NCBI RefSeq assembly: GCF_000024625.1
Contig: NC_013407.1
Span: 62,001-126,000 of the forward strand
DNA: 64,000 nt
DNA from: Methanocaldococcus vulcanius M7
GTDB taxonomy: Archaea; AGJL01; Methanococci; Methanococcales; Methanocaldococcaceae
Reading direction: 5' to 3'
Shown here: one piece after another, positions 6,556-60,949 of the stretch
Position numbering within the stretch: position 1 is the stretch's first letter
How the letters are laid out: the number at the start of each line of letters is the position of its first letter
Translations under genes and position numbers: made by a program
The notes under the pieces: generated by a model
Seen by the model: only the letters and a program-made list of their open reading frames with translations
The model's database searches: none
What the model was told of the DNA's origin: nothing

Positions 6556-7582
6556 TATCCTGTTATCTCTTGTGGTGGTAACAAACAATAGAAAGGAGGA
6601 TTTAGAAAATTTATTGGACAGTATTTTAAATCAAAAAGACGTTGAGAGGAGTTTGTTTGAAATAGTTATTGTAAATAACGGAGAAGATATAGGAGATTTA
6701 ATAAAAAAATACGAAAAAAAGTTAAATATAAAATATATAAAAAATAATGGAAATCTTGGGGCTTCAAAAGGTAGAAATATCGGAGTTAAAAATTCAAAGG
6801 GCAAATATATTCTATTTTTAGATGATGATAACTACTTACAAGATGAATATATTTTAAAAAATATCATAGAAAAAGACATCGAATTGTTAGAAAAAGATAA
6901 TAAAATCGGTGCTATAAGGTATGCGACTGAATATCCAATATACAAAAATGGAAAAAGGATAGGTTATGAATATACAGTTTGTGAATTAGATACAAAAACT
7001 AAAAAATCATTTGATATTCCAAATAATATAAAACTATTAAAAGAAAATTCAATATATTTTTATTTAAATCATTTTGCAACATGTGGTGTTTTAGTTAGAA
7101 AAGAAGCTTTTGAAAAAATAAATGGCTTTGATGAAAATATGTTTGTATATGCAGAAGATATTGATTTGTCCATTAGGCTTTGGATCAATAATTATAAAGT
7201 ACTTTTAAACCCATGGATAATAATAAGGCATAACGAAACTCCCAAAAAAAGAAATAACTTATGGAGAGAATATCAAATGACGAAAAATCAGATTTTAATG
7301 TTGTATAAAAATTTTCCTATGTTTTTATTTTTATTCTATACAATAAATTGGCTAACTATTCAAAGTATTTTATCGTATAAAAATTTAAAACAAAAAGAAC
7401 CAGATATTACTTTTTTACAAATGTATAGGGAATTTTTAAAAGGGACGAAGGAAGCTTTTAAATTAATATTTATACAAAGAAAAGTAAAAAGAAAACCAAT
7501 GTCATTTAAAATGTGGAAATATATAAGATTTGGAATTCCAAAGGAAAATATAAAAATATTAAAGGAAAAAGGATTATTATAA
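6548..7582 (+). CDS. Glycosyltransferase family 2
   Basis: A GT-A fold transferase of 344 residues. The N-terminal strand LLSLVVVTNNRKEDL is the nucleotide-binding start of GT2 enzymes, NLGASKGRNIGVKNSKGKYILFLDDDN holds the DXD-type metal site (LDDD near residues 94-97), and FVYAEDIDLSIRLW is the acceptor-side ED motif found in rhamnosyltransferase-like members. A hydrophobic stretch (FLFLFYTINWLTIQSIL, about residues 258-274) suggests membrane contact. The start overlaps the preceding gene and is preceded by GAGGGTGAAT. The end overlaps by 6 bases the convergent glycosyltransferase on the minus strand. Linkage and donor cannot be told. Confidence 0.85.
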   Translation: MNNILLSLVVVTNNRKEDLENLLDSILNQKDVERSLFEIVIVNNGEDIGDLIKKYEKKLNIKYIKNNGNLGASKGRNIGVKNSKGKYILFLDDDNYLQDEYILKNIIEKDIELLEKDNKIGAIRYATEYPIYKNGKRIGYEYTVCELDTKTKKSFDIPNNIKLLKENSIYFYLNHFATCGVLVRKEAFEKINGFDENMFVYAEDIDLSIRLWINNYKVLLNPWIIIRHNETPKKRNNLWREYQMTKNQILMLYKNFPMFLFLFYTINWLTIQSILSYKNLKQKEPDITFLQMYREFLKGTKEAFKLIFIQRKVKRKPMSFKMWKYIRFGIPKENIKILKEKGLL

Positions 7583-8800
7583 AATTGACTTATAAAAATC
7601 TACATGTTCTTTTGCTTTCTTTTCAGCATCAAAGTTTAGTGCCCATTTCCTTGCTTTTTTTCCAAATTCATTTCTCAAATCTTCATTTTCTATAAATTCT
7701 TTTATTTTACAATATATTTCATAAGAATCTCTTGGTTTTACTAAAAGTCCTGTTTCTCCATTTTTAACAACATTTGGAATCTCCCCCGTTAAGGAAGAAA
7801 TTACTGGCAAGCCACACATTTGGGACTCAACATAAACAAATCCATACTGCTCAAGCCAGTGGATATTTGGGTTTGGTGTTAAAACAAAAATATCTGCCAA
7901 ATTATAATAATCAGGAAGGTTAAAATAATCAAGGAATCCCAAAAATTTTATATTTTTCTTAATTCCAAAAGTTTCAGACAATTCTATTAATTTAATTTTT
8001 AAGTTTCCAGAACCTAATATTAACCAATAGATATCAATTTTATTGCTATACTCTTCAATTAATTTTTTTACAGCCCAAAACATATCAATATATCCTTTTT
8101 CATATTCAATCCTACCAATAGATAATATAAAAAATTTTTTATTATTGTTGTTTATACCTACTTTTTTAGCATATTTTTCTTTTAATTGTTCTTTTTCTTC
8201 ATCAGAATATGGTTTGAATATCTCTGAATCAACTCCATAATATATAGTTTTAATTTTATTTTTATCCCAACCTTCCAAAATTAACGCATTTTCAACAGTT
8301 TTTGATTTTGATAGTATCTTATCACAATTTGCTAATGAATATCTTTTATTTTTTTTGTGGTAGATTCTCTCTATCTTAAATAAAGAAAAAGGAGTTCCAA
8401 GGTATGAGAAATATTCCCAATTATATGGCAAATTTTCCCATGTCTCTACAATTGTTTTATAACCATATTTCTTAGAACATCTAACAATATCAACTGTATA
8501 TGGAGTAAATGGTTCTAAGGTATGGACGATATCAAAATCTCCTTTTTTTAATATTTCTTCAAAATTCATAACTTTATTTCCAATAGAAAAAAAGTAATTT
8601 AAAAAATCCAGTGCAAGAGGTATATTAGCAATATCTTTTATTCTTTTAGCATCATAGTGCTTTATTTTATATTTTTCTAAAAAATTTTTTCCTTCTATTG
8701 GTAAAACATAAAAATCAATTCCGAATTTATCATAATATTTAAAATTTTGATATAGCCATGGTGCATAATTGCCCACATACAGCACTTTAATTTTTTCCAT
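7577..8800 (-). CDS. Glycosyltransferase family 4
   Basis: A GT-B retaining glycosyltransferase of 407 residues. The C-terminal donor domain shows SIGRIEYEKGYIDMFWAV near residues 230-247, KFLGFLDYFNLPDYYNLADIFVL near 285-307, and the E-x7-E type region FVYVESQMCGLPVISSLTGEIPNVV typical of GT4. The ATG at 8800 follows GTGGGGATAT on the minus strand and is preferred to an in-frame ATG at 8821. The start lies inside the 3' end of the upstream family 9 gene, so the two are coupled. It is the last gene of a five-gene minus-strand glycan set that converges on the plus-strand set. Substrate unknown. Confidence 0.88.
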   Translation of the reverse strand: MEKIKVLYVGNYAPWLYQNFKYYDKFGIDFYVLPIEGKNFLEKYKIKHYDAKRIKDIANIPLALDFLNYFFSIGNKVMNFEEILKKGDFDIVHTLEPFTPYTVDIVRCSKKYGYKTIVETWENLPYNWEYFSYLGTPFSLFKIERIYHKKNKRYSLANCDKILSKSKTVENALILEGWDKNKIKTIYYGVDSEIFKPYSDEEKEQLKEKYAKKVGINNNNKKFFILSIGRIEYEKGYIDMFWAVKKLIEEYSNKIDIYWLILGSGNLKIKLIELSETFGIKKNIKFLGFLDYFNLPDYYNLADIFVLTPNPNIHWLEQYGFVYVESQMCGLPVISSLTGEIPNVVKNGETGLLVKPRDSYEIYCKIKEFIENEDLRNEFGKKARKWALNFDAEKKAKEHVDFYKSIL

Positions 8801-49682: not shown

Positions 49683-50546
49683 TTATCTCTTTTTTATTCT
49701 ATCACTTTTATTCCACATTGACATTAAAAACTCCCTTGCATAGCATTTATTACACTCAATCTTCGGTAATTTTATCTCCTCACTTACATTACCAACGTAA
49801 AAGAAACCCTCTAATGTAGGACATGGATAAATATCCCCATATTCATTGACAAATAACATATCTCCAAAATTTAAATAGCAGTATCCTCTATTAGGTCTTT
49901 TTTGTAGATTTTTTATAAATATAGGGTAGTTTTTTAATTCATCTAATATTTTTTTAAATTCTCCAAGATTTGGTAATAATTTTAAGTGATCCTCTTTTTT
50001 TGGTTTTAATAGATCGAAACTTACGCTTCTTACACCAACCGCTAATAAATATTCAACAAAATCCTTCAAATAAGGTAAATTATAGGATGTAATTACAGAC
50101 GTGATTCCAAATTTTATATTATAAGAGTTTAACAAATATATCCCCTTTAAAGTATCTAAGGTTGAAGATTTTCCATCTTTATAAGGCCTTAAATGATCAT
50201 TTACCTCTAAACCGTCAATGCTTACTCCAACATTTAAATTTAGATCTTTAATCCTTTCAACCAACTTTTTATCCAAAAGTGTTGCATTGGTTTGTATTGC
50301 ATATGTTATTGTTTTGTTGGGATATGTTTTATTGCAATATTTAACTACCTTCTCTATAAGTTTAAAATTTAATAACGGCTCCCCTCCTGTGAACTGTATT
50401 TTTAACTTATCATCTAAATTTAAAAGATAATCAATACTTCTTTTGGCTGTTTTAAAATCCATATCTTTATCATTTTTGTTATTTGCATAGCAGTAAATAC
50501 AGTTTAAATTACACCTATTGGTTATTTTTAATATTAAATACTTCAT
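49683..50546 (-). CDS. Radical SAM protein
   Basis: A 287-residue radical SAM enzyme. The iron-sulfur motif TNRCNLNCIYCYA (CxxxCxxC) is near residues 10-22, the SAM-binding GGE in KIQFTGGEPLLNFKLIE near 49-65, and a later VGVSIDGLEVNDHLRPY near 132-148. The C-terminus has further Cys residues (GYCYLNFGDMLFVNEYGDIYPCPTLEGFFYVGNVSE and IECNKCYAREF), a short SPASM-like cluster, as in peptide-modifying enzymes. No precursor peptide was seen nearby. The ATG follows GGGGATTTT. Substrate unknown. Confidence 0.88.
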   Translation of the reverse strand: MKYLILKITNRCNLNCIYCYANNKNDKDMDFKTAKRSIDYLLNLDDKLKIQFTGGEPLLNFKLIEKVVKYCNKTYPNKTITYAIQTNATLLDKKLVERIKDLNLNVGVSIDGLEVNDHLRPYKDGKSSTLDTLKGIYLLNSYNIKFGITSVITSYNLPYLKDFVEYLLAVGVRSVSFDLLKPKKEDHLKLLPNLGEFKKILDELKNYPIFIKNLQKRPNRGYCYLNFGDMLFVNEYGDIYPCPTLEGFFYVGNVSEEIKLPKIECNKCYAREFLMSMWNKSDRIKKR

Positions 50547-57791: not shown

Positions 57792-57953
57792 TTAAAAGAA
57801 TCTTCCATAAGTTAAAATTGCTTCAATAATAATAAACGCAGTTGTAATTCCAATAACATGCTCTGGCTTAACTTTAACTTTTGAGAATGTCTCATCCATA
57901 TATCTTATTAAACCAGCACTTGTTGCCAAACCTGTCTCTTCTCTTTTACTCAT
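57792..57953 (-). CDS. secG: Protein translocase subunit Sec61-beta (SecG-type)
   Basis: A 53-residue tail-anchored membrane protein. It starts [20 protein letters not shown], followed by [16 protein letters not shown]-like basic linker and one membrane helix ([17 protein letters not shown], about residues 34-50) ending RFF. It is nearly the same as the Sec-beta subunit of the M. jannaschii SecYEbeta channel that I know from its structure. It supports protein export through the SecY pore. The ATG at 57953 follows TAGGTGAAATT. It sits right after the DUF3226 gene on the same strand (4 bases between) and ends beside the phosphoesterase gene. Confidence 0.95.
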
Positions 57954-57957
57954 AATT

Positions 57958-58644
57958 TCACCTAAAATTCTCTAAAAACTTCCTTAATTCATTAAGTTCT
58001 TCTGATTCAAAATTCCAATAACCTTTTTCCGCCCCAATTCCAACAGAATTAACGATTTCTGGCATTATGGATAAATAAGCTAATGCTCTTGCCTTTGCGA
58101 TATTTTTAATTTTACCATTAGAATTTAAAAAATTATTCCTATAAAACCTTCTACTTTTAAAGTAATCATACTTTCCAAAAAATTCTTTTACCTTTCCTTC
58201 TTTATATAGTTTGTTAGCACATTCAATTAAATCATCTACACAACTAATTAAGGGATTATCTTTAACCGTTTTTAAACATAAATCTTCTAACATTCCTTCT
58301 TTGAAATTACCGGGCATAACATAAATACCAATTTTTGGAATTCCTTCTGAAAAAATATACATCTCTTGTGGTGAGTTTAGCCCTACATTTTTTAAAATAT
58401 CACAAACACTTTGAAAAGTTGTATAAGGATTATTATCAGCATCAATAATGATTCCAAAAGCAATAATGTTTTTAAAATTAGAATCTCTAATCCAAACTTT
58501 CAATTTATTTTTAAGATTGTTTTTTCCATCATATTTTAAAATTTGGACATCATATATGCCTAAAAAAATCAGAAATTCTTTAAAAAATCTTTTTTCATCT
58601 TCGCCCTCTACAATTAGTATTTTGTTTTTTGTTAAGGTTTCCAT
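57958..58644 (-). CDS. DUF3226 TOPRIM-like protein, partner of the AAA ATPase
   Basis: A 228-residue protein with a TOPRIM-type core at its start: [17 protein letters not shown] (Glu13 region, V-E-G-x-D-E) and [15 protein letters not shown] (D-A-D at residues 68-70), the acidic residues that bind metal in TOPRIM nucleases. The rest is helical, with [14 protein letters not shown] and [15 protein letters not shown]. It fits the DUF3226 family. TOPRIM proteins paired with an ABC-type AAA ATPase act as defence nucleases (OLD, Gabija, PARIS). The ATG immediately follows the ATPase stop (TAAATG), with GAGGT inside that gene's last codons, so the two are tightly coupled. Nuclease or defence function is inferred. 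Confidence 0.75.
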
Positions 58645-59754
58645 TTACCTCATCTCCCATTCCATATTAATAGCTTCTTTTAATGTTTCTTTATCATAAT
58701 CAATGGCTTTAAATTCATTGTTGTATCGTTCAATCCTATATAGCATAATATCAATATCTTTACTCTTCATATTTTCATAAACATCTATATATGCTTTTAT
58801 ACATTCCCATGAATGTGTTGTTGCGAATAATTGGACATTAAATTTCTTTGATGCTTCAAAAATTCCTCTCCACAAAATTTCTAATGATGTGTAATGCAAA
58901 CCATTCTCAATTTCATCTATAAAAACAAATCCATCTTTTGCATTGTATATTGCTGACAAAATAATTAATAATTTTAAAATTCCATCTCCCATAACGTTTA
59001 TCGGTATGAGTTTTTCAGCTTCTATATCACAATATATAATTCCCTCCGCCCCAATTCTCAGATCTTTTATAGAAGGTTCTATTTTTTGCAATATTTCTAT
59101 TATTTTGTCAATTTCTTTTGAAATTTGAAGTTTATTTATCCATTCTACCATATTACTTATATCTATCTTTGGTGATAAATATATTGATTTTTGTTCTTTT
59201 GCTAACCCCATTATTCGAGAAATTCTAACTCCAGTAGGTAGGGGAACAACAGATTTTATATTGTTATTCTCTTTAATTACAACTTTTTTTAATCTTCCTT
59301 CCCATATAGATATTTCATAAACTTTTACATTTTTTATATCTGAAACTTTAAAGGTTGTATAGTTTAAACGCAATCCTCCAATTGGAAATCCCCCAATATT
59401 TTCATCATACTTAATCTCACTTCCATCCATGTAATTTATAATAAGTTCTTTCATCTCATGTGAATTTATATAACCGCTAATTTTAATTGGAATGTTGGTA
59501 TTTATTTTATTAAAAATAGTTAATAATGCGTTATTAAAAACTTCTGAATCTTTATATATTTCCTTAAAGTTTTCAAAATTTCTAATATCAATTAAATTTA
59601 AAATAGTAAGTGGATTGCTTAGTAAATAGATTCCTTCAAGAACAGATGTCTTACCACAATTATTTTTTCCAACAAATAAATTAATTCTTTTTAAATCATC
59701 AATTTCAAGATTATTTATGCCTCTAAATGAATTAATTATAACTTTTTTAAACAT
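58645..59754 (-). CDS. AAA15/AAA21-type ABC ATPase of a two-gene TOPRIM system
   Basis: A 369-residue ABC-type ATPase of the OLD/RecF-like group. The P-loop FVGKNNCGKTSVLEG is at residues 28-42, a signature-like NVMGDGILKLLIILSAI at 253-269, Walker B GFVFIDEIENGLHY at 275-288, and the H-loop LFATTHSWECI at 309-319. The short middle replaces the long coiled coil of SMC proteins, as in AriA of PARIS and similar proteins. The ATG overlaps the end of coaBC by 8 bases, and the stop touches the TOPRIM gene. Best reading: sensor ATPase of a PARIS- or OLD-like anti-invader module. A general RecF/OLD-like repair role is the alternative. Confidence 0.82.
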   Translation of the reverse strand: MFKKVIINSFRGINNLEIDDLKRINLFVGKNNCGKTSVLEGIYLLSNPLTILNLIDIRNFENFKEIYKDSEVFNNALLTIFNKINTNIPIKISGYINSHEMKELIINYMDGSEIKYDENIGGFPIGGLRLNYTTFKVSDIKNVKVYEISIWEGRLKKVVIKENNNIKSVVPLPTGVRISRIMGLAKEQKSIYLSPKIDISNMVEWINKLQISKEIDKIIEILQKIEPSIKDLRIGAEGIIYCDIEAEKLIPINVMGDGILKLLIILSAIYNAKDGFVFIDEIENGLHYTSLEILWRGIFEASKKFNVQLFATTHSWECIKAYIDVYENMKSKDIDIMLYRIERYNNEFKAIDYDKETLKEAINMEWEMR

Positions 59755-60949
59755 GGCATTTCACCAACTCTTTAACTTTTTCCACGATCTTTTCAGCAAC
59801 ATATTTCTTAGATCCAGAGATTTTCTCAATATCATTTTTTGTTATAATATAAACCTCAATATAATCATCTCCGAAGTAGTGCTCACTTAAATCATTGGCT
59901 ATAATCATATTTAAATTGTATTTATTTAGTCGCTCCTTAGCCCTATTTATAAGTTCCTTTTCATCTAAATTGTATTCTGCTTTAAATCCAATAATTATCT
60001 TGTCCTTATAAATCCTTCTTAACTCTTCTAAAACCTTAGGATTTCTCTTTAACTTTAATATTAGCTCTTCTTCAGAACTCAACTTTCCTTCAAACCTCTC
60101 AACTGTAAAATCAGATATAGCTGCTGATGAAATAATTATATCAAAATCCTTAGCCAACTCAATAGCTTTATTTAACATCTCCTTAGCTGTTAAAACCTTA
60201 TGATTCTTTATATAATAAGGTGGCTCTAATCCCATGGCTGTTATAACCTCGACATAAAAGCCCTCTTTGCAAAAAGCTTCTGCTAAGGCAACTCCCATTT
60301 TTCCAGATGATAAATTAGATATAACTCTAACTTTATCTATAAACTCAATAGTCCCTCCGTTTAATATTAAAACTCTATTACCTTCTTTTTTTAAGTTATT
60401 TCCTATTTTTTCAATAACTACTTTAACAACATCCTCAATACTTGCAACTTTTGCCTTCCCTTCTTCAAACTTTGGAGATATGATATAAATGTTATCTTTC
60501 TCTTTAAGCTCATCTATATGTCTTTTAATTGCCTTAAACATATTTTCATGCATTGCTGGGACAATAAATATTGGTTTATTTCCAATAAACATTAAAGCAG
60601 TGGTATTTATAATATTATCTGCAATTCCTAAGTTTATCTTTGAGATTATATTGGCAGTTGCTGGATATATTAAAAGGCAGTCGCATTCATTGTATAAAAG
60701 GATATGCTCTATATCTCCAGTTATCTCTTCATAAACCTCATTTCCACATCCAAATTTTAATGCCTCTTTGCCTATAATCTTTTTGGTTTCTTCTGTAATG
60801 ATGCAATAAACCTCTGCTCCATGCCTTATTAACTCTCTCATCAATTTAGGAGTTTCAATAGCCGCTATTGATGAAGTTACAGCAACTAAAATTTTTTTAC
60901 CTTCTAAGAGTTTTGATTTTGTTCCTTTTAATAGTTTAGTTGGATGCAT
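59747..60949 (-). CDS. coaBC: Bifunctional phosphopantothenoylcysteine decarboxylase/ligase
   Basis: Makes 4'-phosphopantetheine for coenzyme A: CoaB joins phosphopantothenate and cysteine (CTP), and CoaC decarboxylates the product with FMN. The 400-residue protein has the CoaC half with KKILVAVTSSIAAIETPKLMREL near residues 18-40, LLIYPATANIISKINLGIADN near 93-113, and IFIVPAMHENMF near 126-137, and the CoaB half with VLILNGGTIEFID near 193-205, ISNLSSGKMGVALAEAFCKEG near 210-230, and IIGFKAEYNLDEKELI near 321-336. The ATG follows TAGTGAGATT. The AAA ATPase starts within its last codons. Confidence 0.95.
   Translation of the reverse strand: MHPTKLLKGTKSKLLEGKKILVAVTSSIAAIETPKLMRELIRHGAEVYCIITEETKKIIGKEALKFGCGNEVYEEITGDIEHILLYNECDCLLIYPATANIISKINLGIADNIINTTALMFIGNKPIFIVPAMHENMFKAIKRHIDELKEKDNIYIISPKFEEGKAKVASIEDVVKVVIEKIGNNLKKEGNRVLILNGGTIEFIDKVRVISNLSSGKMGVALAEAFCKEGFYVEVITAMGLEPPYYIKNHKVLTAKEMLNKAIELAKDFDIIISSAAISDFTVERFEGKLSSEEELILKLKRNPKVLEELRRIYKDKIIIGFKAEYNLDEKELINRAKERLNKYNLNMIIANDLSEHYFGDDYIEVYIITKNDIEKISGSKKYVAEKIVEKVKELVKCHV

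Follow-up and report, generated by a model that had tools for sequence, protein, structure and literature searches.

What is a gene pair for an ATPase and a TOPRIM protein doing inside a housekeeping operon of Methanocaldococcus vulcanius M7? The cassette consists of two abutting minus-strand genes (57958–59754), and it lies in a window of 64,000 nucleotides, the whole stretch of DNA analysed here, from a genome of 1.76 Mb. A sequence-only reading of the window had viewed it as an AAA ATPase plus TOPRIM module resembling anti-phage systems, and perhaps as a distinct archaeal branch of these. The analysis reported below leads us to regard the pair as a likely abortive-infection module of the split OLD type, composed of two genes and acquired by horizontal transfer.

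Anatomy of the Cassette

Both open reading frames were recovered as the sequence-only reading had placed them. The junction between them reads ...GAGATGAGGTAAATGGAA..., so that the TAA of the ATPase gene is followed without a gap by the ATG of the TOPRIM gene (Table 1), a sequence arrangement that suggests translational coupling.

Table 1. Coordinates of the cassette, its sequence motifs and the flanking genes within the window.
Feature	Position	Strand	Remarks
coaBC (dfp), upstream flanking housekeeping gene	59747..60949	-	stop overlaps ATPase start
Direct repeat GGTGAAAT, 5' end of insert	59758..59765	-	end of coaBC; ribosome-binding site of ATPase
OLD/Rad50-type ABC ATPase (predicted)	58645..59754	-	369 aa; PADLOC AbiLi 3.5e-63, PDC-M38A 7.5e-58, full length
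Walker A GKNNCGKT, ATPase residues 29-36	59647..59670	-	ORF and homologue alignment
Walker B D280-E281 of ATPase	58912..58917	-	ORF and homologue alignment
TAA/ATG junction, ATPase stop abutting TOPRIM start	58642..58647	-	sequence reading
DUF3226 TOPRIM protein, predicted nuclease	57958..58644	-	228 aa; DUF3226 7e-32, PDC-M38B 5.3e-18
TOPRIM catalytic Glu E13, VEG motif	58606..58608	-	invariant
TOPRIM DxD motif D68-A69-D70	58435..58443	-	D68 invariant in both alignments; D70 invariant or at least 90%
Lys K184 of TOPRIM protein	58093..58095	-	invariant in both alignments
Direct repeat GGTGAAAT, 3' end of insert	57955..57962	-	sec61beta ribosome-binding site; contains TOPRIM stop TGA
sec61beta, downstream flanking housekeeping gene	57792..57953	-	53 aa; translation and NCBIfam; below ORF-listing length limit

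The ATPase matches the Pfam families AAA_15 (E=6.7e-21) and AAA_21 (E=2e-19). Its Walker A motif (G29-KNNCGK35-T), the signature-like segment MGDG (M255-G256-D-G258), the Walker B residues D280-E281 and the H-loop (H314), all noticed in the sequence-only reading, are invariant or near-invariant among the aligned homologues, and a C-terminal E-x-R tail is conserved as well. An AlphaFold2 model of the protein (pLDDT 70, weak in the central insert and disordered at residues 111-165) matches Retron-Eco8, PtuA, Rad50 and GajA in Foldseek, which points to an ABC ATPase of the OLD/Rad50 kind. Judged by this model, the class is ABC/OLD and not AAA+, so that the ABC-type designation of the sequence-only reading stands and its "AAA" label, merely the name used by Pfam, does not. 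A profile search of the PDB led to PtuA, OLD and, weakly, AriA; searches of the PDB with the single sequences of the cassette proteins returned no match.

The Second Protein Has a Predicted TOPRIM Core

The second protein scores 111 bits where the cut-off is 27 and is a clear member of DUF3226. The acidic motifs VEGED and DAD that had been recognised by eye are present, and V12-E13-G14 and D68-A-D70 are conserved; neither of the two alignments shows any variation at E13, G14, D68, P111, G117, E120, K184 and L191, and D70 is invariant in alignment A1 and kept in at least 90% of the sequences of A3. The residues of the E…DxD…E…K pattern are retained across bacterial, phage and archaeal DUF3226 homologues.

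A confident AlphaFold2 model (mean pLDDT 87, from a 15-sequence alignment) has its best PDB matches in 6njx, 6njv, 6njw and 6nk8 (Foldseek E 2e-4 to 4e-3, probability 1.00), the TOPRIM domains of the Class 2 OLD proteins of Xanthomonas and Burkholderia, while a chain of the PARIS complex is matched weakly (E=0.056). The full-length TM-scores of these matches are only 0.4-0.5, and the common part is therefore the core. The model thus assigns a TOPRIM core to DUF3226, with the Class 2 OLD TOPRIM domains as its nearest relatives, and the protein has the features expected of an OLD-superfamily TOPRIM, namely the fold with E, DxD and Lys. A profile search of the PDB matched the TOPRIM core to PH0156 (2p62), a solved relative. 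This links a Pfam family of "unknown function" to the TOPRIM nucleases that are part of mobile ATPase–TOPRIM modules in archaea and bacteria.

Relation to Known Defence Systems

Profile searches (PADLOC, Pfam), which the sequence-only reading had proposed as a check, returned strong matches to AbiLi and PDC-M38A/B, a weak one to AriA and none to AriB. PDC-M38 is a PADLOC candidate composed of an ATPase (A) and a DUF3226-type TOPRIM protein (B), and the adjacent window genes match both models. Residues 1-369 of the ATPase align with positions 1-383 of PDC-M38A; the match of PDC-M38B is partial (residues 5-144, 63 bits), compared with a strong 263 bits for a Citrobacter copy. Homologues from bacterial plasmids and phages match the same models. 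PDCs derive from guilt-by-embedding, and most of them are unvalidated (PMC12988326). Literature searches for DUF3226, PDC-M38 and PH0156 yielded no paper and no experimental work on a DUF3226 pair.

The best PADLOC match of the ATPase, over its full length and with 212 bits, is AbiLi of the lactococcal AbiL system (AbiLi + AbiLii), which the cassette also resembles in its two-gene, plasmid-borne layout. The second protein, however, is DUF3226 and did not match RloB/AbiLii at E<=1 in Pfam or PADLOC (the AbiLii model had no positive control), and AbiL proper was rejected for this reason. PARIS (AriA + AriB) has the same split OLD architecture of an ABC ATPase and a separate TOPRIM nuclease, but its AriA models give the window ATPase 84-86 bits, far under AbiLi and PDC-M38A. 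Since AriB/DUF4435 was not matched at E<=1 in Pfam or PADLOC, identity with PARIS was rejected, and the earlier assignment of the partner to DUF3226 rather than to the DUF4435 of PARIS proved correct. Class 1 and Class 2 OLD proteins and GajA of Gabija likewise combine an ABC ATPase with a TOPRIM fold, and the nearest solved TOPRIM is that of Class 2 OLD; in the window, in contrast, the two domains reside on separate proteins. These two separate reading frames, and the fact that neither the GajB helicase nor any other Gabija component was matched among ten nearby proteins scanned, led us to reject Gabija. Cran1 (archaeal OLD class 5) is also an archaeal OLD-type ATPase with a TOPRIM domain, but it is a single fused protein that is conserved in the Sulfolobales and essential (PMC12796447), whereas the window pair is split, patchy and mobile.

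Because both PDC-M38 models and AbiLi are matched, and AriB, AbiLii/RloB and GajB are not, we file the pair under a known, unvalidated candidate kind, PDC-M38, as far as profile matches define it. By analogy, it most probably works like AbiL and PARIS, with an ATPase sensor that controls a TOPRIM nuclease.

An Insertion between coaBC and sec61beta

The cassette is inserted into an otherwise intact housekeeping operon. It forms a 1.8 kb insert between coaBC and sec61beta that is flanked by the 8 bp direct repeat GGTGAAAT, and the coaBC reading frame extends into the ATG of the ATPase gene (the sec61beta model match, E=2.3e-14 and 52.8 bits, lies slightly under the 55-bit cut-off of NCBIfam). 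Four sister species (G001, G002, G004, G007) possess the empty site, in which the coaBC stop leads straight into sec61beta with a single GGTGAAAT; G008 shares the filled state of the window, the pair lying between the two genes with a copy of GGTGAAAT at each end. The flanking genes are 89-98% identical between the window and G004, which we take to be M. jannaschii. The presence of both occupied and empty sites among sister species of Methanocaldococcus amounts to a clean natural experiment. A full-length ATPase of the window group is found in three of the 14 genomes of the genus, most of which are without it; DUF3226 is also encoded in G004 on an extrachromosomal contig of 58 kb, where the neighbouring ATPase is split and more distant. 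The sole match of a contig scan with one protein was a near-identical MAG (L009).

GGTGAAAT was considered as the target-site duplication of a transposon. Neither a transposase nor a clear terminal inverted repeat was seen, and the repeat doubles as a ribosome-binding site; transposition is therefore not claimed. No promoter or terminator belonging to the cassette itself is visible (sigma-70 and terminator scans are uninformative for an archaeon); its genes are probably transcribed together with coaBC and sec61beta.

Homologous Pairs on Plasmids, on Phages and in a Defence Island

The contexts of homologous pairs vary widely, and a single constant housekeeping setting, which would have spoken against a defence role, is not what is seen. 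Among bacterial plasmid records, 142 match the TOPRIM protein (134 of them from Klebsiella), and 19 of the best 20 of these 142 are plasmids of 3.8-4.2 kb; in the one small plasmid of this type that was examined, the annotation lists an HTH gene, a Rop gene and nothing else besides the pair. Further copies are present on plasmids of Citrobacter (6.4 kb) and Acinetobacter (13 kb) and in a region of a Plesiomonas plasmid that resembles a prophage; among 5,426 E. coli genomes, eight have the pair on plasmids of 4.7 kb. On these E. coli plasmids, as on those of Klebsiella, Citrobacter and Acinetobacter (4-13 kb), no obvious cargo is present other than the pair.

Thirteen IMG/VR contigs carry the ATPase and DUF3226 with strong profile scores (in this count, the handles L101 and L102 denote one contig). 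In one of them (L105), the pair occupies precisely the interval from gpA to the portal gene gpQ of P2, which is the P2 defence hotspot that holds old and tin (PMC9122126); other phage copies follow an endolysin gene, lie near baseplate genes, or are found in contigs with Zot genes. A tblastn search of a phage collection with the window TOPRIM protein gave no match, whereas the IMG/VR profile searches did find phage copies. In G006, the pair is located between HmaB (DUF1156 methylase) with an OLD/GajA-like gene on one side and HmaC (DUF499) on the other, and an HmaA-like helicase fragment is close by; DUF499-centred systems with OLD-ABC/TOPRIM auxiliaries have been described (PMC12839542). The TOPRIM gene of this locus (L046 9584-10389) is frameshifted and its partner ATPase intact, reflecting either real decay or a sequencing error.

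Trees of both proteins were built from 29 pairs. In each, the window groups with G035, a member of another family (77-79% identity), amid phage and plasmid copies, and a second group is archaeal-only and includes the Thermococcales pairs. Archaeal, plasmid and phage copies interleave, and the combination is already listed by PADLOC as PDC-M38, so that the notion of a distinct archaeal branch had to be abandoned. As the main groupings of the ATPase and TOPRIM trees agree, the genes travel together. The pair found after gatA in G035 is missing from G034, which belongs to the same genus. The cassette is mobile and inherited as a pair, and was probably acquired horizontally.

Recurrent Locations in Archaeal Housekeeping Operons

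In five Thermococcales loci (L078, L080, L081, L082, L087), a distant pair separates wtpB from wtpC in the tungstate operon wtpABC, which encodes a transporter. Across 30 wtpC loci (L135-L164), the gene directly before wtpC is the TOPRIM gene in seven and wtpB in 23, one of the latter having an orphan ATPase after wtpC; ATPase–TOPRIM pairs at the wtpB–wtpC junction are found in a minority of the Thermococcales, most of which are without them. At another locus (L093 7551-9319), the pair separates the 2-oxoacid ferredoxin oxidoreductase subunit genes korB and korC. The Thermococcales ATPases read LIDSAEAFHH where the close group has FIDEIENGLHY (Walker B DSAE versus DEIE), a sequence difference on account of which this branch may work differently. 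Repeated location in housekeeping operons weakens location alone as a mark of defence; presence or absence at each site marks mobility.

One could envision the archaeal cassette as a promoterless, transposase-free "operon rider" that repeatedly enters the coaBC–sec61beta, wtpB–wtpC, korB–korC and after-gatA junctions, recreates the flanking ribosome-binding sites and borrows the expression of the host operon, making its loss or silencing costly. We consider this idea doubtful. If true, operon riding would be a distinct and unrecognised route by which defence genes spread and persist outside of defence islands, and the habit of embedding in operons may explain the under-detection of archaeal defence genes by island-based searches.

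Many Thermococcus genomes encode standalone DUF3226 proteins of about 340 aa next to a HAD-like gene (L079 7267-8280, L089 7443-8459, L090 7571-8608), whose N-terminal part may perhaps derive from an ATPase tail; a check of such a fusion gave one modest BLAST similarity (E~2e-6 versus five sequences), and two HMM comparisons not above shuffles.

Proposed Mode of Action and Competing Interpretations

Given relatives on phages, on small bacterial plasmids and in a defence island, the pair is very probably an anti-virus (abortive-infection) module. The defence part of the sequence-only reading is supported to the extent that distribution speaks for it, through the Hma island, the copies carried by phages and plasmids, the P2 hotspot and patchy presence. 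Against defence count the window locus itself, which is not a defence island as judged from the ten nearby proteins scanned, and the recurrence of the distant Thermococcales branch in one housekeeping operon. In the mechanism that we infer from related systems, the ATPase, like AriA or AbiLi, would sense an invader or its counter-defence; in the ATP-bound state, it would restrain the TOPRIM protein in an inactive form; and upon triggering, the latter would work as a nuclease of the two-metal type, cleaving nucleic acid of the invader, the host or both, and the infection would stop. The structural model slightly favours DNA as the target, as in OLD and Gabija, with tRNA, as in PARIS, being possible.

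A variant of this explanation differs in target and outcome: DNA-targeting defence against plasmids and other mobile elements by OLD/Gabija-like nicking, rather than abortive killing of the host. Among solved structures, the TOPRIM domains of Class 2 OLD DNA nucleases (E about 2e-4) match the fold better than the AriB-containing PARIS complex does, and small-plasmid carriage fits competition between elements. The Foldseek difference is modest, however, with TM-scores in the low range noted above, and the two-gene layout is that of PARIS and AbiL, in which a released effector shuts the host down; we regard the variant as a real possibility with a less than even chance. Main-cargo status on very small plasmids would also suit an addiction cassette that maintains itself or its plasmid, the ATPase neutralising a toxic TOPRIM nuclease and defence being secondary or absent. 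In E. coli, the AAA proteins of related pairs neutralised their toxic TOPRIM_OLD partners (PMC10440598), and the frameshifted nuclease gene beside an intact ATPase in G006 agrees with this (an ATPase that remains without its TOPRIM partner in G246 is uninformative either way). Yet deletion of either PARIS gene was non-toxic (PMC9122126), and the copies found in the P2 old/tin hotspot and the Hma island speak for defence, which makes addiction unlikely as the main function.

The operon location in the window, the standalone DUF3226 branch of Thermococcus without a neighbouring ATPase gene, and the archaeal OLD clade of Cran1, which functions in the cell cycle and not in antiviral defence (PMC12796447), could in turn point to a housekeeping enzyme of DNA metabolism or the cell cycle. 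This is very improbable in view of the four sisters with empty sites, the scarcity of the pair within Methanocaldococcus, and the copies on phages and plasmids. For the preferred abortive-infection module, the very small enterobacterial plasmids with the pair as their main cargo make candidate PDC-M38 easy to test.

Additional Observations

Elsewhere in the window (49683-50546), a radical SAM protein gives a weak PADLOC match to viperin; it is probably not a viperin, since NCBIfam indicates peptide-maturase-like radical SAM proteins. G012 carries a different insert of ~0.8 kb at the same coaBC–sec61beta site (L035, around 6848-7785), which encodes a predicted membrane protein and has AATTTTAGGTGAAAT in common with the 3' junction of the window; the site in this genome is possibly a hotspot or the scar of a lost pair.
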